A stretch of DNA of 64,000 nt. Source: Bryopsis sp. KO-2023. Lineage: Eukaryota > Chlorophyta > Ulvophyceae > Bryopsidales > Bryopsidaceae. Where the stretch lies: positions 6,138,001-6,202,000 of the forward strand of contig BSYQ01000003.1 in the NCBI GenBank assembly GCA_030272585.1. The letters run 5' to 3'. The notes below the pieces were generated by a model. It made no database searches, was not told the origin of the DNA, and saw only the letters and a list, made by a program, of their open reading frames with translations. Numbering within the stretch: the first letter of the stretch is position 1; each line of letters starts with the position of its first letter. Positions 1,365-55,114 of the stretch are shown in pieces. A program made the translations under genes and the position numbers.

Positions 1365-2653
1365 ATGCCCAGTGATGCTCTCCCAAAAGACCGTGTGACG
1401 AACGAACAAAATGTTCACAAGCTCCACACCACATCGAGAAACATTGCCAGCAACGTGGATCAATTGAAGAAAAGTCTGTTGGAGTTGGAAGCAGGTGCGA
1501 CAATGATGCAGGATGCAGCCCCCCCCCAAAAAAAAAACAACAAAAAAAACACAGAAAACACACAGAAAAAGAAAAAGAAAAACCCAGCCAGTGCCATCCA
1601 CAAGCGCACTGGGGATGTGTGTGATAGATCAGTTTGATTTCTTGTAGTGGTTAGGGGAAATGAAGTGAAATGCCCCACTGTTTCAGAAATGGTGCTCATG
1701 TGTTGCAGAGATAAAGATCGATGAGGATGGACAGAAGGAGTACGAAACATTTCTGCATGACCTGAATAAGAAGAAAAAAGCCCTGGAAAAGGAAGTCACC
1801 CAGGACAAGGAATGGATCGTAAGTTTCATGTATAAATCTGACAGAAAACAGCAAGGCATCTATGTGGACCTGAATTTGACTGTTAGATTTGGAAGAAAAC
1901 CTTTGCAAGATTCTAACCGCAAAATTTCCCTGATCATCCTTTCAAACGGAAAACAGAAAAAAACCATAAAATTTGTGTTGAATTTTAATTTGGGGGGGGG
2001 GGACGATTTTCAGGAGGCCTTCGAGAAAGAGCAAGAATCTGGAGGTTTCGAGCAACAGTACAAGGTGTTGCTGGAGCAGATCCAAAACATCTACGAGACT
2101 GCCAAAGAGTTCCACTCCAAGGCAAGCAAACACACTATCAAAGAGAAGGCTGCATCACCTCTCTTTTTTTGTGGTTCTATACGCGTTCTGCAAAACTTGT
2201 TTGTATGTCCCTGAATGAAATGGTTGTGCTTAAATCGACCAAGTTTCGAGAGGTCATTCTGGAAAATGTGTGGATAATTGTAGCTCTGTTTTGGAATTGG
2301 TCACTGAAAGCGGGGGAAAGATTCCATCAATTGAAAACACACATGCAAGGGTTTCTTTCCTGGGACCACTCCATTTTCCTTCAAAAGGATCTCTGTATTA
2401 TTGCTCAACATAAAGGTCAACCTTTTTTTTCTTTTCTCTTTTTTTTGGGGGGGGGGGGAGGAGTACTGTTGTTGAATCCAACAGAATAAGAATGAGTTGT
2501 GGAACGATTCTTTAATGCTTGAGTGTGACATCCTCAATCATATTTCCTTTTCTTTTGCAGGGTATCGAAATGTTGATACAGGAGTTCGACTACCACATTG
2601 CATACAAGCGATGGAACGACACATTCACAGCCGTTCCTTTCAAACCCAAGTAG
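1365..2653 (+). CDS. Small conserved-looking coiled-coil protein, 4 exons, 146 aa
   Basis: Exons 1365-1494, 1709-1818, 2014-2121 and 2561-2653 join in phase to a 146-residue, heptad-rich, highly charged protein. It ends in the aromatic/basic tail YKRWNDTFTAVPFKPK. The third intron starts with GC instead of GT (CCAAG|GCAAGC ... TTTTGCAG); the GC donor is required because the phase-0 codons on both sides are open and intron read-through meets stops. Introns 1, 2 and 3 contain homopolymer tracts (C9A10 at 1519-1537, G11 at 1992-2002, T8G12 at 2439-2458). I do not recognise the family. The size and coiled-coil make-up resemble small ciliary or trafficking-complex subunits, but that is only an impression. 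It is transcribed away from COX5b. Confidence 0.68.
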
Positions 2654-2846
2654 CTTTGGAGTGTCGACCAGGGGGAGTTCACCCAGGGGACAAAACTGAA
2701 CGTTTTTGACAGATTGAAACCACCAATTCAATAACAGACTGAACATGACAAAGTTTGGGATCCGCTCGATTCTATTACAACAACATCGTCCCAGACCACC
2801 TACATATTTCCCCTAAAAGAAAAGAAAATGTGTACACCTACCCGCA

Positions 2847-5389
2847 TCACTTCCCAAACGATTTCGAGATTTTGTCTTCACAAAACTCCAACAGCTTTTG
2901 ATTGGTTGCCCACAATCTCTGCATGCCCAATCGCGTCTCGCCTAGCTCCTTATCAACATCCAGACCTCCCCCCCCACTGATAATGCCCACTGACGGCGTT
3001 CCAAACAGGGCTGGCTCCTTTGATGATGAATCCACCAGCAACCCACATCTTGCTGCAATGCCTGTGTACTCCACGCTTCCATCGATCGACACTGGGCAGC
3101 CATCCCAAGGGTTCAGGTCTCCTCTTGGGGGCCCACCTGCACAACAAGAAAGTCACCCAGATAGATACCTCAGCTGGGAAAAAGGACACAATAAACAAAC
3201 AACAAGTCAAAACAAATTTGCTCCAACGATGTGAAATCTTTTTCCAGCGGGCACACATACTGGTATATTTGTTGAGCCCCAGAATTCCTCGCTTGAGTTG
3301 ATTGTTCTTTCTGCCTCCTCTTTGACCGATGGCTTGCATGGGTGGGTCTTGGATAACCATCATGGCAGTGACTGGGAAACGACTGGGGAAATCCAAAACT
3401 TTGACACACTGTCTCGTTTGCATATCCCACACTCTGACCGTTCCATCCTCCGAAGCTGGTAACACAATTCGAACATTGAGGTCTTTTTTTTTCAACAGAA
3501 ATGCAGGGAAATTGGGAAATGGATGAACTGTTGCAAAATGGAAATGCTGTGAGTTTTTGACCACACCTGAAGCAAGTCGAGAACCATCCCCAGAAAAAGC
3601 CAAACATGTTATGGATCTTGAGTGTCCAGTGAAGCACCTCCACGGCTTTCCATCCTGGCCTGTTTTATCACAACCAAGCGTCGCATTTTTTACATCCAGG
3701 CTCATCCACAGTGAGTTGAAGGGAAAGGTTTACCGATCATATTGTTCCGAAACCCGGCACTGTGTTTTTCTGGTTTTTTTTTCCCTCCATAGACGCTTTC
3801 TGCTATGACTAACTCCTCTCGATTTTGGGAGTGAAGACTGCATTGAACGGTATTTTGAAATGTCAAGATTGAGTGCCCATGGTTTGGCTGCACCGAAGCG
3901 GTTATTCCAGCTGTTATTCCAAATACGAATACTTTCTGACAATTAGAAAAAAAAAGCAAATAAATACTCTAAATACAAATACTTTCTAAAAAAGTATTTG
4001 CTGTATTTGCCAATTATCATGGCCTCACCTGGCACTCCAACCAACGAAACTTCGAAAAGGATTCCGTTCTTAGACCCAGCATAAACGGAGTGCTCGCCTT
4101 GATCCATCGAAACGCAGACGATAGGTGCTGGGAAAGAAATCGACCTCAGCAGAGTTCCGGTGCCAGCTTGCCATACTTTACAAGAACAATCCATGGAGGA
4201 GGAAATCACGATCGCATTAGCCCCTCCAAATCCACAATGGATGCTTGTCACCGGCAGAGTGTGGTCTGACCTTTACCCAAAAAAACAGCAATGAGCAACC
4301 CACTCAGTCGTGATAGTTTCCCAAGAAGTCCTTTTTTCACTTTCCGGTAACCTTATTTTATTTATCTGGGGGGAAATGGAGCAAGAATATGAAACCAAAA
4401 TGCCTATTTTTGAACAGATTTTGCATTCGATTTCAGATTTTTCCAGGTAAAAAAACGAACAAAGAAATACACACACACACACACACACACAACATACCAA
4501 GAATGCAATGGAGTTGGGTTGCCCACCGGAGTTCTCCCTCTGTGACAGTTTTCCAAGACTGTGGCCAACGACCATACATTCACGATGGCATCTTCGCCCC
4601 CGGTCAACAACACAGATCCTCCATCCAATAGGGCAAGGGCGGTGACCGCTTTGTAATGGCCAGGCCAAGTTCTCAAAAGACAGGAGGTTGCGATTTCCCA
4701 CACATAAACAGCTCCGGATTGGCCCCCTCCGATGAAATACGCACCATCCCCAGTCGCTGTGATCACATTCACTTTTTCGGGCAGAAACGATTCTTGTGAG
4801 GGGGAGGCCTGGCAGTAACCCAAAACAACAAAATTAGTTCAATTCATTTAAATTATTTGTTAATATTTTTTTCCTTATTTTCTTTTTTTTGGGGGGGGGG
4901 GCGCACAGATATACCACATGGATCCTTGGAGTAAAATACCCCATCACATTACCAAAGAATTGGAGATGCCCAAGAGTTTGATGTACTGGGATGTTCTGGA
5001 TTCCATCGAAATTATTCATCTTAATACATCCAGAAATAGTTCAAGTTTAACCTACCTTTTCCCACGACCAAAAGCGTATCAAGTTTTTCCCTTTCTGAGC
5101 AGCGGCGACGTAGTCCGACCCCACTCGACACAGCCCATTTCTCCCAGAAGCGTTGTTCTTTAAATTCGTCAGAGGTGCCCCGCTGTCCAAGTCCCTGTTC
5201 ACGTCGAACGCAGAACTCAATATCTGCTTTAGAAATATTTCCCGTGCAATTGAACGGACGAACGACAAAGCGAATAATCAGGAAATATGAACACGTTGCA
5301 AGAGAGAATCTCCGCCCGTGTGTTTACCAAACTGTCAAGCTGCTGCCGCTGGAAGACGACGCCACCAAGACCTCCCGTTGAAGCGACAT
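2847..5389 (-). CDS. IPI3/WDR18/RID3-like WD40 protein of the Rix1 complex
   Basis: The family is the WD40 subunit of the Rix1/PELP1-TEX10-WDR18 complex, needed for pre-60S ribosome maturation in the nucleus; the plant homologue is RID3. Exons: 5389-5328 (MSLQREVLVASSS), 5194-5056, 4808-4498, 4270-4029, about 3700-3567, 3455-3261 and 3136-2847. Diagnostic blocks are FWSWEK, FIGGGQSGAVYVWE, HYKAVTALALL, SDHTLPVTSIHCGFGG (close to WDR18 HTLPITDLHCGFGG), ISSSMDCSCKVW, YAGSKNGILFEVSL, FTGHSRSITCLAFSGDG, ASEDGTVRVWDMQTRQCV and a C-terminal helix (MQRLWATNQKLLEFCEDKI). All junctions keep phase except that between 4029 and the exon starting near 3700. There the phase-1 end has no matching AG acceptor, so a small extra exon or an indel is likely. 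A (CA)n microsatellite lies at 4470-4490 in an intron. Confidence 0.85.
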
Positions 5390-11460: not shown

Positions 11461-11685
11461 TTGATTGGGCCACAAAGCAAAAAAAGAAAACATGAAGGGA
11501 AATCGGTTAAACCTCAAACGTAATTTTGTGTGTTTTCGTTTCATTTCAACGATTCGAACGACATTAATGTGATCGGCGGGAGGTTTCTGTAAAGCGAGAC
11601 ACCTGCAGAACTTTGCAGTCTGGGTGGCTCGTTTAGAGACGAAGCTCTCCCGAGCCTCTTTTTGATCTATATCCGGGAGCTTGAA

Positions 11686-14622
11686 ATGAGCATGCCCAAC
11701 AAGCCCAAAACCAAGCGGCGCAAGTCGGTCAAGCCGTCTTGGAATCGCAAAGTGGTCGTCCCCCCAAGCTACGATAGCACCAAGCACGACCCAGCGAGGT
11801 ATGGAACCGTGCACGAGCCCGCATTCAATGGCCACCCTGCGCGACACTTTCAACCCAACGTGGGAAGCTACCAGAGAGTTGCCTGCTCATGTTTGGAGAG
11901 GAAGGAGTCTCTGATTTTCGGGGCGCGATCTTCTGCGGCTCGGTATTTGGTGGAGGAGTATACGCTGGCGATGGCTTGTAGGGATGTTCAGAAGGTGGTG
12001 TTTGTCTGTGCGGATCCACGGTTGAGCAGCAGGAAATACAAGTTGCTTAAGTCGTCGTGTCCTGCTGGGTCGTCGGTTGGTTTGCTTACGGAGGAGACCT
12101 CGGTCGATCTGGGGAACGCGACGTCAATAGTAACCACCGTGCACACGCTCAGGAGGCTGTCTTACAAAAAGGCCGCTGTGTTGCGGGATGTGGCTTGGTT
12201 GGTGTTCGACGAGGTGCTATGCTTGGGCTGGGAGGAGTCGTCGAGCTGGTCGATTCTGGAGGAAAGCCTGTTGGTTCTGGATAAGAGCGTCAGGTGCCTA
12301 TTTCTGACGTACCCTTTGCCGAACATGTTTGAATTCGCGGAATGGCTGGTTTCGCTTCTGGACCAACCTTGCCATATGATCGAAACTGATCATAGGCCTG
12401 CTCCCTTGAAGCATTTTGGCTATCCTATGGGTGGGGATGGTTTGTTTTTGTTGAAGGATGAAGTGGGTGGTTTCAAAGAGGATAGATTCGGGCAAATGGT
12501 GACTCAAGTGAAAGCCAATGCCAGAGCTGAAGAGCTGATCGGGTTTGGTGGGGTTGGGAGGAATGACGTGGAATCGACCGCTTTCGTCGACAAAGATGGC
12601 AAGGATCTCCACTCTCATGTGGCGGAAATCCTTTTCGTGTTTGAAAGCAATAAATTCCTGCCTTGTGCGGTTTGTTTCGCCAGCTCCAAGTTGTGTGAGC
12701 AGAGTGCTATGATTCTGGCGGAGAAATATGACTTCAACAGCCAGCCTCATGAAAAATTGCAGGTGGGGAACCTGTTCAATCGAGCCATCCAGTGTTTGGA
12801 TGAGGGTGACAGAAATCTGGCGGCTTTGCACAACATCCTCCCGTTTCTGAGAAAGGGCATCGGAACATATCACTCTGGCATGCTGCCAGTGATCAAGGAA
12901 ATCATGGAGTTAATGATCGAAGAGAATTTCATCAAGGTGCTGTGTGCGACGGAGGATTATTCCGTGGTGCCGAGGCTGCCCATGAGGTCCGTGGTTTTGA
13001 CATCGATTTTCAAGTTTGATGGAAAATCGCGGCGGCTGCTCAGTTCCAGCGAATACATTAGAATGAGTTCCTTGGCGGGTAGGACTCAGGATTCCAGGGG
13101 GTTTGTCATTTGCATGATCAGCGAGCATATCGACTGCTCAGATTGCGAGAATTTGATGATGGGGGGTTTGGAGCCTGTTTCAGGGGCGCTCTCGCCCACC
13201 GACTACACGACGTTGAATTTGCTTCGAAAACCTGGGGTGACGCCCAGCACTTTATCAAACATATTCACGAAATCGCTGGCTGATTTCCAGCATCGGAAGA
13301 GAGCCCTGGAATTGCAGGCACAAGCCAGAAAGCTGATGGTGCAATTGGGGGGCGCAGTGGGCGAGAGGGAAGTCAGAACTCTGTTGGATTACAAGGACCT
13401 GGTGGAAAGAATGGCGGGATTGAAGGAAATGACATGGTCTCGTGCTTTGCAGCCAGAAAACAGTTTGGCGTTCCTCAGGCCTGGGCGGTTGGTTAGAGTG
13501 CCTCGGGGCTGGGGTGTGCTTCTGTCGGTCGTCAGAAGATACGATGTGATGTTTGATTCAGAAAACCCATACTTAGCACACGTTCTGTTCAAGGGTGCGT
13601 ATGAATCCAGCTCGAATGCCATGTGCTGCATCGAAACCAAGTCTGTCCCAGTTGCGAACATAAGTGGCATCAGCAGTTTGCTTTTGACTTTGCCGGAGGA
13701 TTTGGGTCCACTCAAAGCTCAAATGCAGGTCGTTAAAATGCTGAAGAATTTGGAGCTGACCTACCCTGATGGATTCCCTCAGCTAGACATCGTCCAAGAT
13801 ATGGGCTTGGTTGATTCGCAAGTAATATCGGCTTTGACCGAAATGGAGAAGCTCTGCATGGAAATCCATGCGCACCCTGTTCACGAAAAATTGAAGGACC
13901 AAAGCCAGGCTTGCTACATGTTGACCAAGGCAGAAAAACTGATCGAAGCTGAGGGTCTCAAAAAGGAAGCTGCTGATATTCCAGCAACAAAGCTGTCGGA
14001 AAGGGTCGATGTTCACTTGGGAGTGCTGCGAGCGCTGAAATACATCAACGAAGAGGGAGAACTGCTGAAGAAGGGTGTTGCAGCGTGTGAAGTCGAATCG
14101 GTGGATTGCTTACTGTGTGTGGAAGCCCTCACGGCAGGGGTGTTCGATGGATTGGACAAGCATTGCTTAGCCGCTGTTGCATGTGATTTCTTAGGGGTAG
14201 ATCCCAATGCGGAAGTCCTTAGGGGCAGCATTAACAGGGAGGCGCCGATATCGTCCGCTCTGAACAAAGTGAGGCAAGTGGCGGAGAATATCACAGATGT
14301 GAAGAGCGCTCATGGCCAGTTTGTGGACAGGATGAATTACTTGGGACGGTTCGAGAGCAATTTTGTGGATTTGATGTTTGCTTGGTCCAAGGGTGCCAGC
14401 TTCAGGGAAATGTGCAACATGACGAGAGCTTCGGAAGGGGATGTGGTGAACCTCGGCCGGAGGTTGCTCAGATTGCTGCAAGAGCTGGTGTCTTGTGCCA
14501 GGATTCTGGGTTTCGAAAAAATAGCCACAAGTTTGGAGGATTGTATACAAAATTTTGCCCATGGAATGATGGTTGCTTTGCCCCTGTCTCTGAACCCAGA
14601 AACAATGGTTTTGGATCCTTGA
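11686..14622 (+). CDS. MTR4/Ski2-like protein with degenerate helicase motifs (probable pseudo-helicase), intronless
   Basis: MTR4 is the DExH RNA helicase that feeds RNA to the nuclear exosome. This 978-residue ORF starts at ATG 11686 (an in-frame TTG upstream is ignored) and follows MTR4 almost end to end. Matches include FAEWL..QPCH.I.TD.RP.PL.H, GIGTYHSGMLPVIKE, KFDGK..R..SS.EYI.MS, FLRPGRLVRV..GWGV, a C-terminal helical block (VACEVESVDCLL) and the terminal FVDLMFAWSKGASFREMCNMT. The catalytic motifs are ruined: motif I SAGKT reads GARSSAARY (79-87), motif II DEIH reads DEVL (175-178), motif III SAT reads TYP (208-210) and motif VI QMSGRAGRRG reads RMSSLAGRTQ (459-468). So ATP binding and hydrolysis should be lost while the fold is kept. 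No intron interrupts it, unlike its neighbours, which suggests a retrocopy. The long intact frame argues against a dead pseudogene. Confidence 0.88.
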   Translation: MSMPNKPKTKRRKSVKPSWNRKVVVPPSYDSTKHDPARYGTVHEPAFNGHPARHFQPNVGSYQRVACSCLERKESLIFGARSSAARYLVEEYTLAMACRDVQKVVFVCADPRLSSRKYKLLKSSCPAGSSVGLLTEETSVDLGNATSIVTTVHTLRRLSYKKAAVLRDVAWLVFDEVLCLGWEESSSWSILEESLLVLDKSVRCLFLTYPLPNMFEFAEWLVSLLDQPCHMIETDHRPAPLKHFGYPMGGDGLFLLKDEVGGFKEDRFGQMVTQVKANARAEELIGFGGVGRNDVESTAFVDKDGKDLHSHVAEILFVFESNKFLPCAVCFASSKLCEQSAMILAEKYDFNSQPHEKLQVGNLFNRAIQCLDEGDRNLAALHNILPFLRKGIGTYHSGMLPVIKEIMELMIEENFIKVLCATEDYSVVPRLPMRSVVLTSIFKFDGKSRRLLSSSEYIRMSSLAGRTQDSRGFVICMISEHIDCSDCENLMMGGLEPVSGALSPTDYTTLNLLRKPGVTPSTLSNIFTKSLADFQHRKRALELQAQARKLMVQLGGAVGEREVRTLLDYKDLVERMAGLKEMTWSRALQPENSLAFLRPGRLVRVPRGWGVLLSVVRRYDVMFDSENPYLAHVLFKGAYESSSNAMCCIETKSVPVANISGISSLLLTLPEDLGPLKAQMQVVKMLKNLELTYPDGFPQLDIVQDMGLVDSQVISALTEMEKLCMEIHAHPVHEKLKDQSQACYMLTKAEKLIEAEGLKKEAADIPATKLSERVDVHLGVLRALKYINEEGELLKKGVAACEVESVDCLLCVEALTAGVFDGLDKHCLAAVACDFLGVDPNAEVLRGSINREAPISSALNKVRQVAENITDVKSAHGQFVDRMNYLGRFESNFVDLMFAWSKGASFREMCNMTRASEGDVVNLGRRLLRLLQELVSCARILGFEKIATSLEDCIQNFAHGMMVALPLSLNPETMVLDP

Positions 14623-24469: not shown

Positions 24470-27400
24470 CTACCCCCACAACCCATTTGTAGTTTCCAGG
24501 GGGGTCTGCCCAACCAGCATCGCACCCGAACTCATCCCCCGGCCAATAGGAGCCGACACAGGTCCGCTTGCATAAACATCCGGTGGCATCGAACTTCCAA
24601 ACTGGCCCAAGCTGCCCGTCATTGCCTGAGGTGCATCCGCGAAATTTGTCTGACTCGGGGACATCATGCTGTCTTGCATCCCTGCAGGCACCTCGCTCGT
24701 CATTCGAGCATGACCTGCTCGCATGGATGCCGTGCTGCCCGCGCTGAAATCTGTGGGGAACTCTGGCATGCTTGGAGTGTGGTGATGCCTCCTTGTCATG
24801 TACAGCCTGGAGCGATCGATAGGTGGCAGCGGGGAAAGGTGGTCTCCATACATCTCGGGCTGCTGTTGAGAGTACATCCCTAGCTTGCTTCCATCCTGCA
24901 TGAATTCACCACCTTGTCAATAATATTCTGGACTGTTTCACAAATCTCCTTCTCAAGATTGGATTATGCAGAAAGTGCCAGATTTCCGTCTGAAAGAGAA
25001 ATTTTATCAATACAGAGTTCAATGTGCATGTCAGGTTGGTCAAACCAAGTTTACGCGAGCTTACCCCGAAGGAGTTCCGGTACATCGGCTGAGATCCAGC
25101 TGCCCATGGATTTGACCTGTCATAATCTCCAGGCGATTTGCCGAACTCCGCTGAAGAGCGAGGAACGTCTCCTGGCGACTTGCTGAAATCTGCAGGGGAT
25201 CTTCCGAGGGTGGCGGCTGAGAGCGTCCTCGTGAGTCTGCCGATGGAGTCTGCTTCTCGGACGGTCTGGTGGATGAGGGGTGATAGCATGTCACCTCCTA
25301 CCTGCTGGCCCTCCTCTACCATTTGCTGCCTATCATCAGCCCACAGAGCTTCTTTGTCACCCTTTGCCATCCGCTTATACCTGATATCAAGCCCACAGCG
25401 CATGTCATATCTGGTACTAGATCAAATCAGCAAGCGTTCCACCCTTGATTCGAGAAATCACGACGACGGCGGTGTAGGTAAGGGGTTTGAGTGAGGTCAC
25501 ACCTAGATGCCAACTGGCTGTCATAGTGGATGTTGTTGGGATTCAAGCGGTTGGACAGGTTCAGAATGGGGGCTTCATCCATCTGGAACGCTCCGTCGTC
25601 CGGAGCTGGCATGCCATCCTCAAATCGAGCCCCTTGCCACTGTGAGTGTCCCATCCCAGGACTGGCCATGCCTGGCGCACCCATACCTGGTGGACCCATG
25701 CCTGGACTCGGCATACCTGAGCCGTTCATCGCAGGGCTTGGCATTCCACCATTCATTGCTGGACTGGGCATGCCTCCGTTCATACCAGGACTGGGCATTC
25801 CTGGACTGGGCATGCCAGGGCCATTCATTCCAGGGCTAGGCATGCCAGACATACCGACTCCAGGACTCGGCATACCAGACATGCTCATCCCAGGACTCGG
25901 CATGTTTGGACCCATTCCATGGAGCCCACGCCTATCTTGACCTGAAACCAGACCAGCCGAACGAACCATCAGACAGGGATCAGCATCCAAACAGTCAGCG
26001 TCAGCATCTTGCGTAAAGAGCACACACCAGGGGAATCTTCCAATCGAAATCCTCTCCTGTTATTCACCCTGAACCAGGCTGGAGGGCCAGAGCCTTCCCT
26101 CTGAAATCTGACCACCAGGGGCTTCGTCCCCGATATAGCAGAAACCACTTCGGCATCCAAGGCTTCCTTGGCACGGGCTGCATGTGTCGCCTGCTGGAAA
26201 TTCACAAATGCAAAAGTCTTGCCAGGGAAAATTCTCACGCTCTCCACAGGACCGTATCGACTGAACAAACTGAACAAGACAGTTTTGCTCGGACGAAGGG
26301 ATATGTTTCCCAGCCAAAGATGCCGTGAGGGCTTGCCCTCCGGAAGCTGCATTTCCTCATTGCTGGCTTGCTCTATCTCATAGATTGAGATTTCTTCTTC
26401 GACCTCCTCCCATGTGGGATTGTAGTCGGGGCGACCTTTTCGCATCCGGATCCGTTCCATCATTTGCATGTGCGACTTTGTGCATCCCATGGTGGGTGAA
26501 TCCCAGGATTGGAATGATGGTGCACTCCTTGATGGGCTCAAACTCGGTACTGCACACAATGTATCAACATCCATATATTAGTTTCCATTTGGAGAAAGTA
26601 ATGGGGTGAACAACCCCCCAGTGAAATCTTGCATTTTTATGAAATCCAGTGTTTTATTCTGGTGGAGCAAGAGGGCATAGACTGGGGGCCTGTGGAAAAA
26701 AAAAGGTGTACCTTGCTCTTCAGTTGGATGCACTCCAGGCATCAAATCCCCGACTCTTCCCAGGGCTTTCCGATTGGGTCTGAATTTTATCACAAGCTTC
26801 CTGTTGGCCGTCAGCGCCGGGATCTCCTTCATGTCGAGCTCTCTGGCTGCCCTCTGAGCATCCTCACAGTTAACAAAATTCACGAAAGCATACATTCGTC
26901 CGGGGAACGTGACCACATCCTCCACTGACCCATACTCTTCGAAAATCGACTTCAAGATGGATCGAGGCAATCTGGTGTTCAGATTGCCCAACCACAGGTG
27001 TTTGCTGGGTACCTTGGAGTCTTCAGTTTCCAAAAATGAATCAGGCAAGAGGCCCGGGGACATGCCTTCCCAAGGACCACCCACACCACCGGGGGAAGCC
27101 AAACGAGGGTCAGCCCCACGCATCAATGTTTTGGGCACCCACACCTGGACATGCACAGATTAGGTTGAATCTGCGGTGACATGTCATTAGAAATGCAATG
27201 GCTGTGTATACCAACATGCATACCTGTGGTGAACGGGATGGCGTTCCAAACTGTTGCATTGATGATTGCCTCAAGAACGATCCAGGTCCTCCAGGGCTCT
27301 CTCCTCCCATTGGTGACATCGGCCTGTCCCAGACGTCGTACCCTTCTCCTCCCCAGCTTGCCCCTGTGAATGCTGCCGACCTGTACCTCGGTGGATTCGA

Positions 27401-28848
27401 AAGCGTCGGCATCAGGTTACGAATAGGGCGATCCGGGGTGGTCAGATCACCAAGAGGGAATGATGTGGGTGGTGGGCCATTGGCTACCATCGGATCGCTC
27501 TTCTCAGTACCATTTTCGATGAGCCCAGTGATTTCACTGGACAGCCAATGCATCAGAATTTGGTGATCATCCTCTTCCCCCTCTTGTGGTGCACCTGTTT
27601 CTCCCCCGTTCTCCATCCCAGGCCCCTGTGCCTGACTCATACCATTCAGCATCCATCCAGGAGGCCCATCGGGCTGGGGCTGGGAACCAATCTTCGGATC
27701 ATGCGCCCCCTCAATCATGGAGGGGTTGGGTAAGTTATACCCTGGGTGAACTTGCATCCCGGAAGAGAGAGGTTCGCCACCATTCCCCAGCCGATCTGGA
27801 TACGAGGCCCACGGAGGTACATCCATCGCTTCCATCACAGGGCCAGCCATCATGGCTTCATGCTGCGCTGCAAGATCAAGAGGGGGACCATCTTGAACAG
27901 GGTTGAACTCCCAAGGTCTGGCACAGGGGTCCTGCATCCTGGGTGGATCTTGATCAGGGTGCCAAGACTCACGTACCCGATGGTCTGCGACTTCTCCTGA
28001 TTGATGGTCCACGTATACCGATTGCCAAGAATTCGCAGGGGGAGGAGGTTTGTGCATTACATCCATCCCTGCCATGCTCTCATCAGGCATGGGCCCATGC
28101 CAGCTCTGAGAAATCCCATTAAATTCAGTTTCGCTGTGTATGTGATTTTGCTGCATGTGCTGCATTGGGGGAGGGGATGTACCTGAAATCTGTGCAGGGG
28201 GCACGAGACCCAGGATAGTGTCGAGATCTCCGGATCGGTTCGGGGGCGACGGGGTTTGCATATTTTCGAGATCTGCATCCACGGCAGGGGAGGCCATGGA
28301 TGCCGCCATCGCTGCCAATGTCGACGACATTTGTGCATGAAGATCATGAGATTGATTACCCTGTGCAGACAAAAAAAAGCCAACGCTTTTTAAGATTCAT
28401 TTTGAATCTTGGTGTGAACTGGCCCCAACGGGGCTACTCAAAATTACTTTCCATCGCTTTTTTTGTAACTTTTTTTAGTACTTTTAAAAAGGTCATTTAA
28501 AAAGAAAATTAGATTCAGTAGTTTATTTAAAAGAAAAAGGTCAAAAGGATATACCTGCAGTGATGTCGCCATGGGTTGACTCTCGATGGTGCATCCGTTT
28601 GGCTGAGAAGATTGATCCATGCCGTGTTGAGGTGACTGTGGTGGGGTTGAGACATTGATCGCATGTGCACCAGGAGCAAGGTTGCTGCTGTGATTGTCGA
28701 GATGATGATGCACATGGTGTTGGGGACTGGACGATGATGGCATTTGGGGGGCAGCCTGGGTCCCAACGTCCGACGGAGTTTTCCTCGCCAAGTGTTGGAG
28801 CTGCGAAAGCATCTGCTGGTGGTTGTATCTGCCATGCTCTCCTTGTAC
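24470..28848 (-). CDS. Two-RRM (SPEN/FPA-like) RNA-binding protein part; possibly the 3' half of a larger gene
   Basis: Seven exons join in phase: 28848-28555, 28360-27224, 27144-26712, 26549-26028, 25941-25503, 25410-25065 and 24895-24470, about 1198 residues. Order: a Gln/Ser/Pro/Met-rich region; RRM1 (KHLWLGNLNTRLPRSIL ... RMYAFVNF) in the third exon; RRM2 (RHLWLGNISLRPSKTVL ... TFAFVNFQ) in the fourth; then a Met-Pro-Ser-Gly repeat (GMPSPGM units, about 25860-25670); then a moderately charged end. The paired LWLGN/RxYAFVNF RRMs resemble plant FPA and SPEN-type proteins, which act in RNA 3'-end processing; no SPOC domain is visible. The first exon opens at an acceptor (CTCAG|GTACAAGG) with no in-frame ATG between the preceding stop and that acceptor. 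Translation must start at the internal ATG 28812 or upstream. The upstream coiled-coil exon ends in the same phase 0. Confidence 0.85.
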
Positions 28849-29244
28849 CTGAGATGCGGCCTTATCCGAATGATGTCAATGCAGGTGATGATGCCTTGCC
28901 ACAGCTTCTGGGTTACAAACTATGAATTCTTGAAAAAATCGCAAAAACTTTAATTGGATTTAGTTTCTATGCTTCCATGTACCAGAACACAACTTGTAAT
29001 TTATGGCATATTGTAATTATTAATAATCCAATATAAATTGGCGCAGAGAGGTGGATATGGACATTGGAATGAAACAGTGCTTTTACTTCCGAGTCATTTA
29101 CACGAACGAACGGGCTGCACTTGGCCTTGTGTAAAATAATTTCAATTTCAATTTAATAAAATATAATTCTAATACAAACAATCGCACACGAAGGCATGGC
29201 ACAGATTGATGGAAGCGGATGACTAAGATGTAAATCCAGCACAC

Positions 29245-32200
29245 CTGTTTTTCTTGCTGCTGTCTGATTCTGTCATCCTCCAGACTGGCCTGTTGGGCCT
29301 CTTGTAACATCAGTTTTTCCTGTTCTTCGATCTGGCGCCTGCGCTCCTCCAGGGCCTTTTCGTACTGCTCATCTAATTGGCGCTTTATCTTTTCTGCTTC
29401 TTCTCTGCGTTTCTTATCTTCTTCGTCTCTCTCTTTGGTTGTATCTATTTCTTCAGTACTTATCATCTTCTTATCTGTCCCATCTGCTCAGCAAAAAAAA
29501 TAAAAACTTAGTTCACCTTAATAGATAAGAAAAAATGACAAAACAAAGGGGGAAAATAACATATCTTATTTTTAATTTTCCCCTAGTGAATCTGGAAAAT
29601 AATTTGAAAAAGTACGTCGTAGAAGAAAAATGAGAAACGGGAAAAAAAAAAGAGGAAGACAACTTGCATCCCTGTTACCTGTGCATTGTGCAGTTCGTTT
29701 CTTTTTTGGTTTCTTTCCGGGGCCGTTTGGATTTTTCTGTTGTTTGGAGTCCTCCATGGCTAGTTCTTTGAGGAGTGCGATCTGGGCGGCGTCCGCTGCG
29801 GCTTCTGTGGCTTTTTCGAGGACCGAAACACATTCAGGATTTTTGCTGGCTCTGGCGAGGTGGAGGGCATTCAAGCCACATTTTGTTCTTTTCAAGAAAT
29901 CGATGCCATCCCCTGCTGCGCTGATAAACATTTCTAGACACTCCGATAACCCGCTCTGTGCCAGCCTGCAAAACACCACACACACACACTTTTTATTAAA
30001 AAATCATAACAAAAACAAAATCACGTCCCTTGCCTGAGCTGAGTCGCTGATTTGTTTCACCAGCAATAGAAAAATGGTAGAAAAATTTACACTACATGAA
30101 ATAAAATCTCCAGCCTGGTTCTTTTTCCATTGCGATCGGTACTATTTGTTGTGGCGGCTTGTTCTGAATTTTTCCCTCATGCACCTGTGGAGAATCATCA
30201 GGCCATCGTGGTCCGTGGAGTTGATACTGTCACCTCCACAGCACTGCAAGCAAACTGCCGAGCCCTCCACGGCAAGGAGAACATCCCGACCCTGAAAACA
30301 GAATCAATACTACATTTGCTCAGGAAGAAAAGCCACTTTTGCCCTGAATAACTCGACAACTTGATTTGGTTTGCAGGACACAGAAATCTATCCCCATGCA
30401 CTTCACAGCAAAAAAAAAAAAGATAAATCACACACACTATTAATGTACATCACTAACTATTATCGAGAGTGAGAAAAAAATGCTGTCTTTTATATATTTT
30501 GTGTGGAAGGCACTCCATACCTTGCAAGGCTCATGCAGAAAACAACAATGGCAAGCATATCTGCAGCAGCTGACTTCTACCACCGGCTCCTCCAAATTCA
30601 AAGACTTGAAATCGAAGTTGAACTTTTCGCCGCCTTCCTCAATGAATCGTGCAATGTATGCTATGGCGGCATGAATGTCTAAAATGTGCTGACTAAGCAA
30701 TTTCGGGGCAACGTGTTTGTCCTGAGAATCCATTTCCACCGGCGGTTCCAGCAGTTTAAATATAACTCCCATACCAAAGCACTGGAACATAGAAAAAAAC
30801 AGAAAGAAAGGTTTTCAAAAATCAGGCAAGGCGGCACACAAGCGTCAGACATGCTCGATCGACATTTTTTCACAATCGATTTTTTTGGTTGTTTCATGCG
30901 ATTTAAAATTGCCGACCCTGACAAGATGGATTGTGAAATAATGTCTTGTGTTTTGGAATTTTTAGATCTGCAATGAGAAAAACTAAAAAGAATTTGACCT
31001 ATCTGCAGTGTTTTTTGCTACAAAAGCGGAGCTGGGCAATACAACCCACCTGTCCTGCTTTAACAAAAACATAACAAAAAAACTACTGATTATGTCTGCT
31101 TTTCCTCTTTCAACACCCTTTCCGAAATGCCACGAACCTCGACACAAAAGATATCCTTGCTGGTGGTCTCTCTCCATCGGAGTGCATTACGCATGGACTT
31201 CATGATCGATTCTATTGCCCTCGGAAGAGGGATATCCACCGCAAGGCACTTCGGATTGCTCAACAAGGAGTACAATGTGCGCAAAGCAACAGCCTAAGAA
31301 ACCACATTTCGCCTCAATTTCGTTTCCAATTTTTTTTTTCCAATTTGCTCACCGCCGAATAATAATGCCAGGAAAAAAAGCTCAGAAAATTCAGTGAATT
31401 CGTATCCGTGCCATGCAGGTTGATGAAACCCTGTTGATAATTTTCAATTTAAGGTCCGATAATGAAAACTTGTTTCTTTCAGAAGGAACTTCTTGAGAAG
31501 GGGTGCCAGTTAGAAAAACGATCTCTTTGTATCCACTGAAATTCACCCACCATTTTTTGACCAATTCACGGAAAAATACAGGTTTTTGTAGTCCACCCCA
31601 CCATTCTTCGACTATTTCAAGTAAAAAAAAACAGATTTCTGCAAGGAGGAAGTAGCAAACACACCTGCATGCGAGTGTCCTGGGCACTGAGGAAAACCTG
31701 ATGATAAACAATTGACACAGCGAAAGAAAGTGCCGACATCCCCTCCAAGTTTGAGCTCAGTCCACCCTTGCAACCCCCATCATCACCACCAACAACCGCA
31801 ATGAAATCGAGACAATGTTTTACAAGCGGGTCATCCTAGGAAAAAAACAAACCACCACAGAAGGTTTATGCATGAGCAAACATTGTATGTGTCTTGTTTT
31901 TTTCTTTAATGTTCTGTTTTTTATTTTCTCTTGTTGAAGCAGCACAGCCACGCAGTTGAACAAGCCATGGAATCTTCCGACCAAAAGTTTCACAAGCAAA
32001 ATATTAACATTAAAACAAAACACACATATCAACAGAAACAACACTCATCCACGTTCACCATTCAGCTTTTCGTCGAAAAAAAAACCACAAAATCCTCGTA
32101 CAGGCTTTTGCAGTTAATTGTGCATCAGCAATTAAAAACAAAACATCGTTACACACACCTTGAGCTGGCAGGATTGCATCATGTCTACGATCATGTGGAG

Positions 32201-34847
32201 GGCTTGGCCCTGCATGATCGGCCACACTTGCCATAAACCCGCCATCCAAGTGTCCTGTTGTTGATGATTGTAAGGGTGCAACGCATTGCTTGCAATCCTG
32301 GTCAGCGACCAGACAGCTGCCCTTGCCACCTCAATGAATCTACCAAAAAACAAAACAGAAAAAAAAAATCCTTCAGAAGAAAAAAAAACCCAAAAATGCA
32401 CCTCACAACACATGTGGATTTTATGATATGTTGTCGGAAAAACGAAACAGCCACCAGAAATTTGAAAAAAATAAAAATGCAAAGTATACAAATGAGGAAC
32501 GGCGATATTGATCAAAAGCTTCCAACCAGGCCTCTGATAGCATTGTTTAATCCGATTTTTCCTTTTTTGAAGATTTTTTTTCGCTTTTTCCTTGAATTCA
32601 TACTTCTCTTGCATCTGCAGCCTGGCCACATTCGTGACGGTGGCCACACACTCTATTATTTCTTGATCCGAGGCATCGGGCCTGCAAGCCAACTCGGCAA
32701 GCACCATGCACCCATGCTCCTGAACAGTCAGCTCATTCCCATCATCCTCTATACCTGCCAACCACATCACCCAATTCAGTAAAAAAAAAAATCAAAAACT
32801 GAAAAAAAAATAATCAAAAACATTGCCTCAACACAACCATACATCAAGAAACCCCCCTGCCGGTTTTTTGCCCCCCCAAAAAAGAACGCGCAAAAAAAAA
32901 CCCTGGAGCTTCCAAGGGGATGATTTTGTCGCCCACCCTGATAGAACTGCATGTGTGTGCATGAAAGGGTGTGTGAATTGCGAAAAGAAAACCTTCCACA
33001 CCGCACACTCACAAGTCCTGACAGCCCGCAGTCCCTGGTTTGCTGCGAGAATCGCAACGTTTCCTTTGTTCATCAGGCACAAGAAATGAAGTGCCTGAAG
33101 GCCATCGGCGATCGCCCTCCTTGCGACTTTGGAGGCCTGTGCTTCTGGAGTGTTTTTGGACGCGATTTCTTGCAGCCGGAGGATTGTCGAAATGAGGACT
33201 TCCACCGATTCCTTGCTGCCCAGCATGTCTTGAGTGGCTCTGTCAGTGCAACCACAATGAAATAAAAACATCAACATGGAAATACTGTAACTGCATTGCT
33301 TGCAGTTGTTTATTATCTTCCTTTCTCTTTCCCAGACTTCCCCCTCCCCCCCTTTTTATTCACCTCCCAAAAACTAGAACAAAAATTCTTTCTTGCAAGG
33401 AAAAAAATTAAAGCACATTGCTTGGAGGGACAAGTCTTCTGAAGAAATACAAAAGCATAACCAAAACACACAAGAAAAATATGTAAACATGCAGGGAGTC
33501 CAAAATGCGTCCAATCTTTGCCTTAACGAACAACACATTGCTTTCTGTTGATGGAGCCCAGAGATGACTAAAAACAAAACACACACATTAAAACTAAAAA
33601 CACACTGCCCTTTTGACTGACAAAGGGGATGCCCACATGCATGAGTGGCTTTTTTTCTGACTGACGAATGGGGAGTCCATGGACACCATGACGATCGAAT
33701 TTGAAATCCCGCAACAAAAATATCTCGTCAACGCGGTCGACATTTTTCGTCAGAAAGACACAAGTGAAAATAAATATTCAGAAGAAAAAACCCCACACAA
33801 ACAAAAACGGCCACGTTGAAAAAGCGTCGCTGGGGCAATACCTGTCATAATAGCTTCGGCAAGTCAGGCACCCACTGAAACTCAACACTGCTCGAACGGC
33901 CGCGGAAAGCAGAGTCAGATCCTGTGGCGCTTGGCGGAGAATCCCAATTACTGCGTCGGGTGCGCCCTCTTGACTCATACCCTGTCGAGCGGGCATAGGA
34001 AGATGAGACTCGCGCCAGCACGGGGTCGAGAACACAATCGAATACAGGCAGGGAATCGACCACCAACGACAAAACAACCCTCACCTCCCAATCTCCTTCC
34101 AGACAAGTTTTACAGTTTTGGCCGAGGACCTCGAGCAACTGACAGGCTCTGGACTTGACCTGTACAACCACCCCACATCGCTGTCAAGACGGAATGACGT
34201 CGCGGATCGCTGCCGAACAGACTGTAGTGATCGCATCGACAGCGCTCAAGAAAAAAGTTGAAAGTCCTATCGGAACGCTTGAGCAGTGCCCGTTTGAGAC
34301 GGGAAGAACGTCAACACTTCGGGAACGCGTCGCTGGGGTTGGGCGTCACAGCCCAACCGGTAGTCATGGACTCGCTGCAAATAATCGTCAATCCCACGAC
34401 GAGAATACCCCTCGTCCCACCCCACCAACCGTCAAAGGCCAGAATCCCGGTCGGAAAGGGTGCGTCACGGATACCCACCTCTGGACAAGGATTCGACCGC
34501 AAGACATCCGCAGCACTGCTCCACAACCTCTTCAATACTTCGGCGGACCATGACTTCCGCGATTGTTCCGACAGTTGCTGCCTGAGCAACTGCAACAGAG
34601 TGCACGTTCGCGGGTCGTCGCCAGCAGCGCTGGCCTCCTCTAACGACTGAAGCGTGACTTCCTTTCCGTCCGCAGGGGCTGGCTCCCCGGCCGACTCTCC
34701 GTTCCCAGATCCCCCCCAAACTTGTTTCGTTCCAGCGCTCCCATTGGGCACAGTCGCACAACTCTGGCCCCCTTTCGTCCCCCCTTGCGCCGTGGTGATG
34801 TCTTGATGTTTATGCTTTTCGGGACAGGTGGTGCTGGACTCGGTCAT
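29245..34847 (-). CDS. Armadillo/HEAT-like plus ankyrin-like repeat protein with coiled coil; possibly the 5' half of the RRM gene
   Basis: ATG 34847 opens a Gly/Ser/Thr-rich leader then LQSLEEASAAGDD; junctions before 34159 are not certain. From there eleven exons keep phase: 34159-34085, 33981-33842, 33239-33013, 32754-32604, 32339-32159, 31835-31665, 31293-31138, 30781-30521, 30291-30185, 29965-29679 and 29483-29245 (665 residues). Early exons look like armadillo/HEAT helices (DAVIGILRQAPQDLTLLSAA, GLQALHFLCLMNKGNVAILA, HGCMVLAELA). Exon 29965-29679 has an ankyrin-like unit (TKCGLNALHLARASKNPECV) followed by a Lys-rich stretch. The last listed exon is a long charged coiled coil ending RIRQQQEKQ at a CAG|GTGTGC donor. 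No stop codon or poly(A)-like end closes the gene before the RRM exons. Armadillo and ankyrin units are protein-interaction scaffolds; cell role unknown. Confidence 0.72.
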
Positions 34848-36366
34848 GCTCGCGCCCCGCTCCCAGACCTGACCGGAGGGTGGTGTAAATAAGGTTTCAA
34901 CAGCTTGAGAGAAGACCAAGGTGCGACGGGGTGGGAAAGAAACCGAGCTGACTGCCACTGGTGACGATTAGTCCAACGAAGTCTGACGCGGGGGAGGAGT
35001 TTTGGTGTGCCTTATCGCCCGGCGCGATTGAACCCGACTGATGGGCTTCCTTTCCCTGCAACACCTTCCTGCGCTGAAACGATCCGTCGATTTTTCGCCG
35101 CTCCCTGTGCGTCATGGGTCGGTCAGCGCGTTGGAATCCAGTTTATTATTCACATCGTCGCATGCAAGCCCCAGCCGGAAAAAAAGCGCCGCACCACCAC
35201 GAAAATCAATCACTGCATGCGGCGAATATCGTCATATTCTGACGATTTTCGCATCACAGCTTCTGATTCTGCTCAGTAACTGATTGATGAGACGACGTTT
35301 TGATGGTGTTACACTTGTTGAGTTGTGGGTGTGCGCGATTTTCTCTTCCCAGGTGAGGCCCCCCCTCTCCCGCTCGTTCGTTTGTTGATCTTACGGGAGG
35401 CCGAGGATGGCTGCTTTTCGTGGCGGTGGTTGCTCGGCAGATTACGCATCACGCACAACAGAATGCATGGAAATCCGGCGACCGCAAAGACCGTTTCGTG
35501 GTCGTAATATTTCCCAGGGATGCTTAATTGGGTTAGTAGTCCTGTGGCGACGGTGGAGATTCAGTCACTGTCTATGAGTCGTTCGCATTGAGGGGAGATT
35601 GCAGGCGGAAGTCCAAGTTCTTGCGCGCTCCAACCATTCGACTGGAGGGCGTGATTCCGTAAATCGACAGCCTAACGTTGACCGACCGATTAAAACCGAC
35701 ACTGGCCTGCCTGAAGGAGCACAACTTTGACCTAGACATCGACATGGGTCGGCCCAGCTTCTTTTCGCGATCGTTCGGTTTCAGGAGCTTGTGCTGACAG
35801 ACTGCATTCTCTCTTTCCCACTGAATCTGTGAGTGGGCGGTATGAGTTGAAACTGCGTAGTCGTGAGAGGATTATGCACCGTAGAGGCGGCCCCCCAATT
35901 TCCCTTCTCATCCACCCAATCCTATCCTCCTGCTGCCTGATTTTTTTCCTGTCTCGTTGTTTGTTTTGCTCTTTTTTTCTCTTGGGGGGCCGTACAACCT
36001 AAACTTTTATTTTTCGTTCGAAGGAAAAGATTGATTCAGGGAGAGTTGATCAAAATTGTTGCAATTGACAGGATGGATCTTGAAGGATGGACGAGCTGAA
36101 TCCTCATTTTATCTTTCTTCTCACACAATGTGGTTCAAGTTGGTTTGTTGGTTTGTTTTCATGACGAAGAAGGAATATCGATTGCTTCAACTTGGTGCAG
36201 AACTGCCTGCGCAACAGGTGTGCAGATCCACACACACACACAACAACAACAACATTGAATAACTGATTGGATTGACTGACTGGTCAGATATCACTTCTCA
36301 TTTTTCAACATGCACATGCACATACACATGTTCAGCAGCAAATGGAGAAGACACTATAAAACTTGG
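34848..36366. other. Intergenic region
   Basis: No supported gene. Short plus-strand ORFs around 35000-35500 have no recognisable content or splice partners. The part next to 34847 should hold the promoter of the armadillo/ankyrin gene. Confidence 0.4.
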
Positions 36367-45000: not shown

Positions 45001-46075
45001 CAGGCTTATTCCCTCCTCCAACTCTTTCTGCGTTCGACATCGAACCTGGGCCAAACCAAAAAATAAAAATAAAATAAAACATGTTTCTTCTTTTCATCGA
45101 ATTAAATCGAGAGAGAAAAAAAAGTATGGATTAGAAAAGAAATTAAGCAAAAAGTAGAAAGAATTGGAACAGCAGACACTCACGGCCACGAAACCCAGCT
45201 TCAATTTGACGTCAGTGTCGTCCAAACCCTCCAATCTCCTCCTCATGCCTCTCGAAAATTGATCTGCTTTAGTCACCACCCCCAGCGTCCTCAATCCTAA
45301 TGGATCCACGTTGGAGGCCAGCTTCAGTGCGGCGCTCGTCACGAATTCGTTGTTGGCAGGTACGGCGCAAAGAATGACTTTGGAGTCTCCGTTGATATAT
45401 TTCTGAATCATCTCCATGGTCAGCTCTTCGATATTGTCTGGTTGGCCCCGGAGAGGCATCCTGGCAATTCCTTCACACCAAATGAAAAAAACAATAAGAT
45501 CATTTCCCCACCCACAATTGAAAAAAAAACAGACAATTATTTTCTCTCCCCTATGAAGCTTTGACAACCCATATTAAAGCCACGGTTGAGCGGTTGTGAA
45601 ATGAGCTGGGGGGTCGATGCTCACCCGGCAGATCAATCAGAGTCAAATCCTGATAGGTCGGCCCCGTCATTCTCAGCACGATCGGCAAATCCTTGATGTT
45701 CAACTCCATGCCAGCGATTCGCTTCGTGGCCAGCAGAATTTCATTCTTGACCTCCTCCACCATGATGTGCTTCGAAACCCTGGGTGCATCCAGGTCAGTT
45801 TGATACTCGATCTGAGCAGAAACCTCCGTTCCGTTTCTCAACTGCAGCTCCAAGGGGACCCTCGTACAGATGCCTTCGCCCCTGGGGAGAGTGACTCCAG
45901 ACAAAATTTCCAGCAAGGAGCTTTTCCCGCTGGATTGATCCCCGACGACCACTATGGCAGGCAGCATTTGGGCGATGTCTGGCATGTTTTTTACGAAAGG
46001 CCGAACGAAATCGATGGCATCCAGGGCCGGACGAATTCGAACATCAGAGGCAATAGCTTTGCCCAATTCTCCCAT
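42085..46075 (-). CDS. Dynamin-related GTPase (plant DRP4/Mx-like), 10 exons, 688 aa
   Basis: Large GTPases that polymerise on membranes. Ten exons join fully in phase: 46075-45625, 45470-45184, 45045-44845, 44495-44283, 44046-43914, 43664-43525, 43352-43143, 42931-42761, 42543-42437 and 42238-42085. The first exon has G1 GDQSSGKS, G2 region ICTRVP and G3 DLPG (split by intron 1); exon 2 has G4 TKAD. The middle/stalk region follows without PH or proline-rich domain, and the end resembles a GTPase effector helix (DIVQKLESMRTARQKLRG). The start MGELGKAIAS...RPALDAIDFVR resembles plant DRP4 and animal Mx rather than DRP1/3/5. Length suits DRP4/Mx (650-700). All catalytic motifs appear intact. 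An intron holds a C11A24 tract (43801-43835). Confidence 0.92.
43801..43835 (+). repeat. Compound C11A24 homopolymer in a dynamin intron
   Basis: Eleven C followed by about 24 A, i.e. TnGn on the transcribed (minus) strand, inside the intron between dynamin exons 5 and 6. Confidence 0.85.
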
Positions 46076-47424
46076 CGCTGTCGTCTACATAAAAGGAAAG
46101 GATTCTTTCTTCTGCTGAAATATCTGACTTTCAAAGAAATTTAAGTCTTTGCTTCTTTCTTTTTGGGTGGGGGAAGCTATTTTTAGCACTGATTCTGATT
46201 CTTGGTTGTTTCTGCCAACCACACCTGAGATTGAGAACCCACAGATGGCCCTGGTGGTGAGTAGTTTGGAGCACCTTGGCCAAAAGTTCTCCCCGAATCT
46301 AAGAATGCCTACAACAAGAAATGACGACCACCAATCAAATTACAGACAACCTACTACAGCCAATCAACATACAACAATGCCAAGGAAAAGGCTGACTAAT
46401 TCAAATCCTCAGGGAGCCCTCAGGAGTTGAGCAACGATGTCACCTTGAATTTTTTTCAGAAATCAAGATGATTTGTTCCAATGATCATTCTAAAGATAAA
46501 GTGGTGCTTGGAATGAACAGATCGGCTGGTGATCGCAAAACGAGGCAGGTCAAATGCCGCGTGTTGCAAGAGTCAATCTGCTCAAGACGTCGTTTTTGCC
46601 CGTGGGCAGACACTCGATCACGTAAACGTTATCGCGTTCGAATCCGAGAAAATTCGACGAAGCTCAACGCATGTTGCCCACCCTCGAATCCTGCCAGTCG
46701 TGCGAGTTCCTGGAGACGCTCCCTGGGCTGACAGGTCCGCCATTGGGTTCAAAAGTATGGCGTCCCTTGAAACGATCGCTCTGCGAAACGGACTGCAAGC
46801 TGTGACTGACCAGCCCCAACCTGGCCTCGGCAGCGGGGGCCCGGTCGCTGTGGTAGAGCCTTTCCATTCACCTACGCTTCTCGCGCTCTGAAAAGAACAC
46901 GGAGACTAGGACTCGAAACCCTTGCAGTAAATAGTGGAAAGGAAATCAAGGTTATCGTTGACTTTCAAGAATGGACGACAGAAACGAATGGGGAGCGACC
47001 TTCGCCGTCCTAACCTACACGCAGAGATCTGGACTCCAGAGCGGTCGGGTTTTAAAAAGTATGGAGGCGAAAACACGAAACTAAGCCGGACGTCAGACGA
47101 TCTGTCCAAACTCGTCGACGTTTTCAAAAGCTCCGCGGCGAAAACAGGGGTGCCCCGTGTGAAAACGAGTGGATAGGGACCGGAATCAACGCCCGCCCTC
47201 GCTCCGCAAAAAGCGTCAGTGGCTGATGTTCAGTCCGATTGATGTCACTTCCAATTCCCTTCATCAACGTAACTCACTCAAAGCAAATCAGCAAGGATAT
47301 TGCTTGTGATCGGATTTTTTTTTTCTCGGTTTGGTCAGACGTCAGCATTTCCTCACTCATTCCAACCTTCCCAGCCAAAGCAGGTGAATGTGCTGTCCTT
47401 GATTCCAGGTTCCACTTTCTGGCA
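46076..47424. other. Intergenic region between divergent dynamin and methyltransferase genes
   Basis: ORFs of up to 120 codons at 46468-46891 and 46934-47176 have no recognisable domain or splice partner. The first exon or 5' UTR of the methyltransferase gene may begin here. No transposon termini seen. Confidence 0.4.
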
Positions 47425-51280: not shown

Positions 51281-53563
51281 TGCTACAAAAAGCGTGCAAA
51301 CGAGGCGAAAAAGAAAGGCCCCCCAGGAATTTATCGACATGCACAGGCGCATGCGATTACCGCCGACAGAGTGGATTCGTTTGGGATCCCTGTGGCTGCT
51401 GATTTCGAAAATATCTCTTTGGCGAACCCCGATGTACAGGAACCGTACTCGCTGCAGTGTGCCGCGATCGTCGACACTGGTATAGGCAAAAAGCAACTTT
51501 TTGCTCGGGTTCACATTCGCGATAGGGCAGAAAACGTTTTGATCGACCCTGGTAGCGAGATCAATCTCATTCCAGTCTCTTACTGTAAACGGCGGGGTTT
51601 GGCGATCAAAGAGCTGGCTGCGCCCATTTCAGTCGCTGGGTTCAATTCTGCGAAGGAGGCACTGTTGGGATCGGTTGTTCTCACGGTCCATTTGGGATCA
51701 GTTTCGAAAGACGTCACGTTCTATTTGGCTGACGCAAATAAACGAATTATTCTTGGCTTGCCCGCCCTGAATGCTTTTGATGTTAATGTCGACTGTGGTG
51801 TTGGACAGCTCCGCCTGCCGGGGGGCCACTTCGTGAGATGCCATGCAGTCGAGCTGGAGGAGGCAGTGGGTCGCGCGACCGTTCGCTTTAAAAAGAGTGA
51901 GGGCACGGTGAGCAGAATGCGAGCCCGACATGGACGATGGGAAGTTCCCCTTGGAAAACCGCTTGTTTTAGGCCCTGGTGAAACCAAGTCGGCGATTCTG
52001 CCTTTTACTGCCGAAGGGTCAGGGATTATGGGTGTCATTCCCATTTGTCAGATCCCAAAAATATTTGCCTCTCCTAGTCTGGGATCGAAGGGGCAACTAA
52101 AAATCCAGTTTTTTAATTCTGGATCAGAGAGTAAAATGCTCTCACAGAAAATGACTCCAGTTGGAATTCTGGTTGATCCCAACTGTCGGATTGAATGGGA
52201 TGTCGATGGTTTTGCTACAGAATCGTCACCCTTGCTTGGGAAGTTCAGCTCGTCAGAGGTGGTGAAGGAAGGATCAGTGGCTCACAATCAGGCTGGGATT
52301 GGGGGAGCCACCTCCTCGATTAACCGAGCGGAGTTTTCAGAGGGAAGCGGGAAATTCAAGGAGCATTTGGGGTTGAAAAAAAAGGAGATAAACAACAGAT
52401 TGGAAACGATTTCAGAGGACTTTTGTTGGCCTCAATCAGAGGGGACTGATGTTGGGAAGGATGTAGAGGACAGAAATGGGTGTAACAAACACATTCATTC
52501 AGTGGTGGATCCGTCTCCAGCTCAGTCTCCAACAGCACACAAACCGACACGACCTTCAGCCAAAATGGCCTACTGGTTGGGACTTTTCCCGACTTTGTTT
52601 TCGATCGCAGAAAGTTTCGGAAACACCGATTACTTGAAATCGATTCAGGTCTGTCACAGGGAGATAGCGTGGAAGGTTGATGTGGATAAGATACCACTAA
52701 TGAACTCGGGAAAGGTCTACAACGTTGGGGATGTGAAAGAATCTGAGATGCGACGCTTTGTTGACGACCTGAGTAATGCCGGAGTCGTCGAGCCAATGCA
52801 TCCATCAGAAAAGGGTTTTTTTAGCCCCGTTATGTTTCTTAGGAAGCCTGACGGGGTGCGCGTTCGAAAGGTGGTGGATTTCAGGTTGCTAAATGCGTAC
52901 TCCGAGGTGTGGCGTACCCCATTTCGGGGGGTAATACCGACTTTACGGCGAATCCCAAAAACGTGGGATCGGTTTACGATATTAGACCTAACCCATGGAT
53001 TCTATCACGTGCCGGTCTGTGAACGGTTACAGCCTCTCTTTGGCTTTGAGGTGCTCGGGAAAAGGTACAAATATCGAACTTTGCCTCAGGGGTGGTCCAG
53101 TTCGGCGGCGATGTTCCACTCGCGAATGGAGTCCAGTCTCGCCGACACCCCAGGGATCCCCTACGTCGACGACATCATAGTCGGTGGGGATGGTCAAGAG
53201 GACCATGATTCGAATTTGAAGGTAGTTCTGGCGAGACTGGAGTCGATGGGGATGCATCTGAACGCAGAAAAAATTCAACTGTCCGAAAAAAGAGTAACTT
53301 TCCTCGGTTATGACGTTTCGAAAGGACGGATTGGGTTGGGGTCGTATATCGAGAAACAGAAACACCAGTTGCCTGAGGGAGTCAATATGCGAGAGATCCG
53401 AAAGATATTAGGAATTTTTAATGTCTGTAGGATCACCTGTCCCGGGCTGGCTGAGCTGGTACGGCCGCTGCAGGAGATCATGAACCAGAAAATTCCCACA
53501 GAGTTGGGGAAGCTTCAACAAATTGATACGTTGTCGCACTCATTTTGCAGTACGAGTGTGTAG
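51272..53563 (+). CDS. Retrotransposon pol fragment: aspartic protease and reverse transcriptase
   Basis: Entered by frameshift or stop bypass rather than by an own ATG. A retropepsin-like domain comes first: VLIDPGSEINLIPVSYC (DPGS in place of the usual DTGA/DSGA) then RIILGLPALNAFDV with the ILG flap-side motif. A long linker leads to the RT: FFSPVMFLRKPDG, RKVVDFRLLN, FTILDLTHGFYHVPV, YRTLPQGWSSSAAMF, IPYVDDIIVGGDG (YVDD catalytic box) and FLGYDVSKGRIG. The order Pro-RT and the RT motifs fit the Ty3-like/gypsy group. The frame ends at 53563 with about 13 non-homologous residues after the break. Confidence 0.88.
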   Translation, partial: REECYKKRANEAKKKGPPGIYRHAQAHAITADRVDSFGIPVAADFENISLANPDVQEPYSLQCAAIVDTGIGKKQLFARVHIRDRAENVLIDPGSEINLIPVSYCKRRGLAIKELAAPISVAGFNSAKEALLGSVVLTVHLGSVSKDVTFYLADANKRIILGLPALNAFDVNVDCGVGQLRLPGGHFVRCHAVELEEAVGRATVRFKKSEGTVSRMRARHGRWEVPLGKPLVLGPGETKSAILPFTAEGSGIMGVIPICQIPKIFASPSLGSKGQLKIQFFNSGSESKMLSQKMTPVGILVDPNCRIEWDVDGFATESSPLLGKFSSSEVVKEGSVAHNQAGIGGATSSINRAEFSEGSGKFKEHLGLKKKEINNRLETISEDFCWPQSEGTDVGKDVEDRNGCNKHIHSVVDPSPAQSPTAHKPTRPSAKMAYWLGLFPTLFSIAESFGNTDYLKSIQVCHREIAWKVDVDKIPLMNSGKVYNVGDVKESEMRRFVDDLSNAGVVEPMHPSEKGFFSPVMFLRKPDGVRVRKVVDFRLLNAYSEVWRTPFRGVIPTLRRIPKTWDRFTILDLTHGFYHVPVCERLQPLFGFEVLGKRYKYRTLPQGWSSSAAMFHSRMESSLADTPGIPYVDDIIVGGDGQEDHDSNLKVVLARLESMGMHLNAEKIQLSEKRVTFLGYDVSKGRIGLGSYIEKQKHQLPEGVNMREIRKILGIFNVCRITCPGLAELVRPLQEIMNQKIPTELGKLQQIDTLSHSFCSTSV

Positions 53564-55010: not shown

Positions 55011-55114
55011 GGGTGAGGTGTTCCCTTGTTGGATTGTGTGAGGTGCTTGTGCTTTCTCCAGTTGTTCTGGTTCTGCTTTTATGAGGTGTTTGTCCTGTCC
55101 TGCCCTGCCCTGCA

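Follow-up and report, generated by a model that had tools for sequence, protein, structure and literature searches.

ANKHD1/ANKRD17 (MASK) proteins carry long ankyrin arrays together with a KH domain, and SART3 carries HAT repeats and is not known to have ankyrin repeats. A further group, the SPEN proteins, has RRMs at the N-terminus and a SPOC domain at the C-terminus (PMC5596367). The window analysed here, a 64,000-nucleotide stretch of Bryopsis sp. KO-2023 DNA on contig C3 of a 91-Mb, 28-contig genome, contains a locus that can be set beside all three. Positions 24470-34847 probably hold, with a likelihood of about three in four, one 19-exon gene on the minus strand, which would encode an RNA-binding scaffold of approximately 1976 residues made up of a helical region, ankyrin repeats, a coil, a linker, two RRMs and a tail.

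An earlier note on this DNA had described the product as SPEN/FPA-like. A Pfam search of the second part (1188 residues), with E allowed up to 1, reported no SPOC domain (PF07744), and the sole SPOC match in the genome is on another contig (C1:1376657-1377094; open frame, Pfam E 1.2e-15), so the assignment to this family was dropped. The RRMs are also not N-terminal as in SPEN and FPA proteins: if the two parts form one gene, their cores start at residues 1314 and 1486 of 1976, and even in a stand-alone RRM gene they would lie about 500 residues in. FPA and AtSpen2 (At4g12640) resemble the predicted protein in having RRMs within one protein, of which AtSpen2 also has two (PMC5596367), but the predicted protein gave no SPOC match and its RRMs come two thirds of the way along, behind a helical/ankyrin part. 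The SPOC locus on contig C1 has features of its own. Upstream of the SPOC match and on the same strand (C1:1376400-1382400, 237-4175) is a stretch that looks RRM-like by eye and weakly matches RRM2 in BLASTP (E 0.008) but matches no Pfam family. An API5-like helical trace under cut-off also lies upstream; from these matches, the locus may encode a SPEN protein carrying a helical domain at its N-terminus.

MASK is a large protein that likewise combines ankyrin repeats with an RNA-binding module, but it has long arrays and KH where the predicted protein has few ankyrin repeats and two RRMs. The likeness to SART3 lies in N-terminal helical repeats and a charged/basic stretch followed by two RRMs; SART3 differs in having HAT repeats and no known ankyrin repeats. 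No HAT family match was reported here by Pfam at E up to 1 or 10, in searches whose filters drop weak matches. Among the titles and abstract openings consulted, none described armadillo (ARM) or ankyrin repeats with an RRM in a single protein.

The gene model was rebuilt manually by three-frame reading, with splice sites placed by eye on the three minus-strand frames, and extends from an ATG at 34847 to a TAG that ends at 24470. Each of the 18 introns has GT-AG ends, and the spliced coding sequence, 5931 nt with the stop, contains no internal stops. The splice-consistent frame is thus open through 1976 codons. Of the eleven upstream and seven downstream exons previously counted, the seven stand, but the upstream part actually has 12.

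Exons 1 to 3 (34479-34847, 34085-34159 and 33842-33981, minus strand, as are all that follow) precede a helical region in exons 4, 5 and 6 (33013-33239, 32604-32754 and 32159-32339). A GC- and CpG-rich stretch surrounds the gene start at window positions 34085-35600, and introns 1 and 2 (GC 0.57 and 0.56) are GC-richer than all 16 later introns (0.30-0.52). The first module had been proposed to be armadillo-like. Ahead of the ankyrin repeats there is a trace of HEAT (E 0.047) and one of Arm (E 0.19, overlapping exon 6), each a single partial repeat well under cut-off. A PDB sequence search of this region at E up to 10 returned no ARM/HEAT chain and gave two chains of FtsZ, both with E above 1. 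Since the traces are under cut-off and the PDB sequence search gave no helical-repeat match, the armadillo assignment is unproven. Exons 7, 8 and 9 (31665-31835, 31138-31293 and 30521-30781) lead to the ankyrin repeats, which begin in exon 10 (30185-30291) and continue in exon 11 (29679-29965). Here the earlier proposal finds support: Pfam Ank_2 falls slightly under its cut-off (E 1.1e-5, 26.3 bits against 27.3), as does Ank_4 (22.5 bits against 22.7), and PDB ankyrins are matched down to E 2.3e-8. Exon 11 also encodes the basic stretch KKPKKKR at residue 697, which we take to resemble nuclear-localisation signals, and exon 12 (29245-29483) a charged, coiled-coil-like segment (residues 715-788, 70% E/K/R/D/Q). 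When the first part was searched against the genome, 12 of 13 matches were its own exons and the remaining one was weak (E 0.006); on this search, the predicted first part is without a credible second copy in the genome.

Beyond intron 12, exons 13 (28555-28848) and 14 (27224-28360) encode a predicted disordered linker. The two RRMs proposed earlier, in exons 15 (RRM1, 26712-27144) and 16 (RRM2, 26028-26549), are supported; Pfam PF00076 matches two stretches at E 9.6e-20, and an RRM is also found in the genome scan. RRM1 and RRM2 are 44% identical over 77 residues, and the pair is therefore likely to be an internal duplication. Exon 17 (25503-25941), with degenerate MPSPGM-type repeats, exon 18 (25065-25380) and exon 19 (24470-24895), with the stop codon, complete the chain. 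Residues 789-1310 and 1546-1976, on either side of the RRMs, consist of 57-58% P/G/S/Q/M/H/N, and the second of these stretches is a predicted disordered tail that includes the MPSPGM-type repeats.

The model joins exon 12 to exon 13, but do the two parts belong to one gene? The boundaries at 29245 and 28848 and their phase 0 were given correctly in the earlier note, although the phase agreement says little, as phase 0 is shared by 10 of the 18 introns. With a leave-one-out matrix, the intron 12 donor (CAG|GTGTGC) scores 10.7 bits and ranks second of 18, and its score is reached by only 4 of the gene's 598 GT sites. The acceptor at 28848 ranks 13th of 18, with 52 of 651 AG sites in the gene as good, and is the top acceptor among the 34 AGs between 29240 and 28556. 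The claim that no stop closes the first part applies to the spliced reading, in which the frame is open; left unspliced, the first part meets a stop after 48 codons. With held-out codon statistics and the stop omitted, this read-through tail has a coding score of -22.0 nats. It lies below every one of the 41 held-out coding windows, whose minimum is -4.7 and median 12.5, with 4 of them scoring 0 or less, and falls inside the range of 60 intron windows, which runs from -29.9 to 7.0 around a median of -13.1. The 12 codons of exon 13 that precede its first in-frame ATG (28812) score +4.1 and are coding-like. The stretch 29244-28849 behaves as an intron.

A rival reading, judged unlikely, divides the locus into two neighbouring minus-strand genes: an ankyrin/helical/coiled-coil gene would end within 29244-28849, and an RRM gene would start within exon 13 or close to it. 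Some differences between the parts point this way, as introns measure 103-602 nt in the upstream part against 79-194 nt in the downstream part and the upstream exons are shorter. GC3 was also considered as a sign of two genes and was rejected, as it does not differ between the two parts (0.57 upstream, 0.55 downstream). The unremarkable acceptor of intron 12 and two TGTAA words in the gap also fit two genes. TGTAA is a poly(A) signal in green algae; its count of two in the gap against none in the 601 nt past the stop at 24470 is too small to decide, as were the TATA and poly(A) words scanned. Against two genes stand the non-coding character of the read-through tail and the need to accommodate a 3′ end, a promoter and a 5′ leader within roughly 430 nt. 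Nor does the gap supply a first exon for the RRM part: the frames opened by its five ATGs are 2 to 14 codons long, a phase-0 donor follows just one of them, with a score of 1.5 where the weakest donor that the gene uses reaches 1.9, and the scan for an ATG with a donor found nothing usable in 29244-28849. It had been noted earlier that the second part lacks an ATG before its acceptor, and this is correct, with none in frame between the preceding in-frame stop and 28848, but exon 13 itself holds the in-frame ATG at 28812, which a separate RRM gene could use. The context of this ATG is poor, with C at -3, and an out-of-frame ATG in good context lies 23 nt ahead of it at 28835.

The composition around 28812 was compared with control gene starts. 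From 67 loci, 19 were taken whose match begins at profile position 1-4, and five without an in-frame ATG (L028, L030, L063, L075 and L081) were dropped; for L027 and L033 the ATG was shifted by hand to the next one upstream. The resulting 14 controls are all conserved housekeeping-type genes of the same genome. On two of four measures 28812 falls below all 14, namely GC of the upstream 400 nt (0.38 against 0.41-0.55) and CpG o/e over +/-200 nt (0.54 against 0.68-1.40), which argues against a separate gene start. It resembles the 15 internal exons of the gene (median GC 0.44, CpG o/e 0.62). At the 34847 start the corresponding values are 0.56 and 0.84, with an upstream CpG o/e of 1.16. The other two measures place 28812 inside the control-start range (upstream CpG o/e 0.69 within 0.44-1.64; GC over +/-200 nt 0.48 within 0.46-0.57), and control starts and internal exons overlap on all four, so the composition test is treated as supporting only. 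A different rival keeps one gene with several products, in which a full-length form would be accompanied by a short ankyrin/coiled-coil form polyadenylated within intron 12 and possibly by an RRM-only form from an internal start. The position of both TGTAA words within intron 12, and the pairing of a very strong donor with a weak-to-average acceptor, are consistent with this, but a five-base word is common by chance and the intronic tail is not coding-like; this reading is judged improbable. A single predicted gene across intron 12, as first suggested in the earlier note, is the favoured and highly probable reading, given the donor, the coding statistics and a gap that offers the RRM part no first exon of its own, with composition as weaker support.

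Other features of the window and genome were recorded. In the window, a 981-codon open frame at 11677-14619 (+) with MTR4 beta-barrel and DSHCT domains is of the Mtr4/Ski2 RNA helicase type, and exons of a dynamin-family GTPase lie at 45178-46078 (-). At 55094-57448 (+) a long open frame includes a hAT dimerisation domain and is a probable DNA transposase, and reverse transcriptase and retrotransposon gag matches at 53078-53395 and 60705-63539 (+) mark retroelement parts. The genome contains 107 light-harvesting matches (PF00504, counted per exon) and is therefore that of a photosynthetic eukaryote. Arf-family GTPase matches occur at about 13 places in contig C2, 6.75-8.46 Mb, many with internal stops, which suggests a local expansion. 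A search for GRAS, run without a positive control, gave no match.

If the single-gene model is correct, what would such a protein do? Its domain types, together with the presumed likeness of KKPKKKR to nuclear-localisation signals, indicate that it is most likely a nuclear RNA-binding scaffold. The basic stretch would allow the protein to enter the nucleus, where the RRM pair could bind RNA while the helical/ankyrin part docks partner proteins. Self-pairing could occur through the coil, and the disordered parts may favour the assembly of RNP complexes. The overall role would be that of an RNA-binding scaffold in RNA processing.

The locus is also a useful test case for the splitting of gene models, as automatic annotation could cut it at intron 12. 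The predicted protein is probably a fusion of ordinary modules into an unusual, new arrangement. More tentatively, and with rather less than even likelihood, it could represent an undescribed class of RNA-binding scaffold that joins a platform of helical and ankyrin repeats to a duplicated pair of RRMs, lacks SPOC and may be conserved more widely among algae. If it is indeed one protein, it would combine widespread eukaryotic modules in a new way and would couple RNA binding to a platform for protein docking in a protein that is not of the SPEN family.
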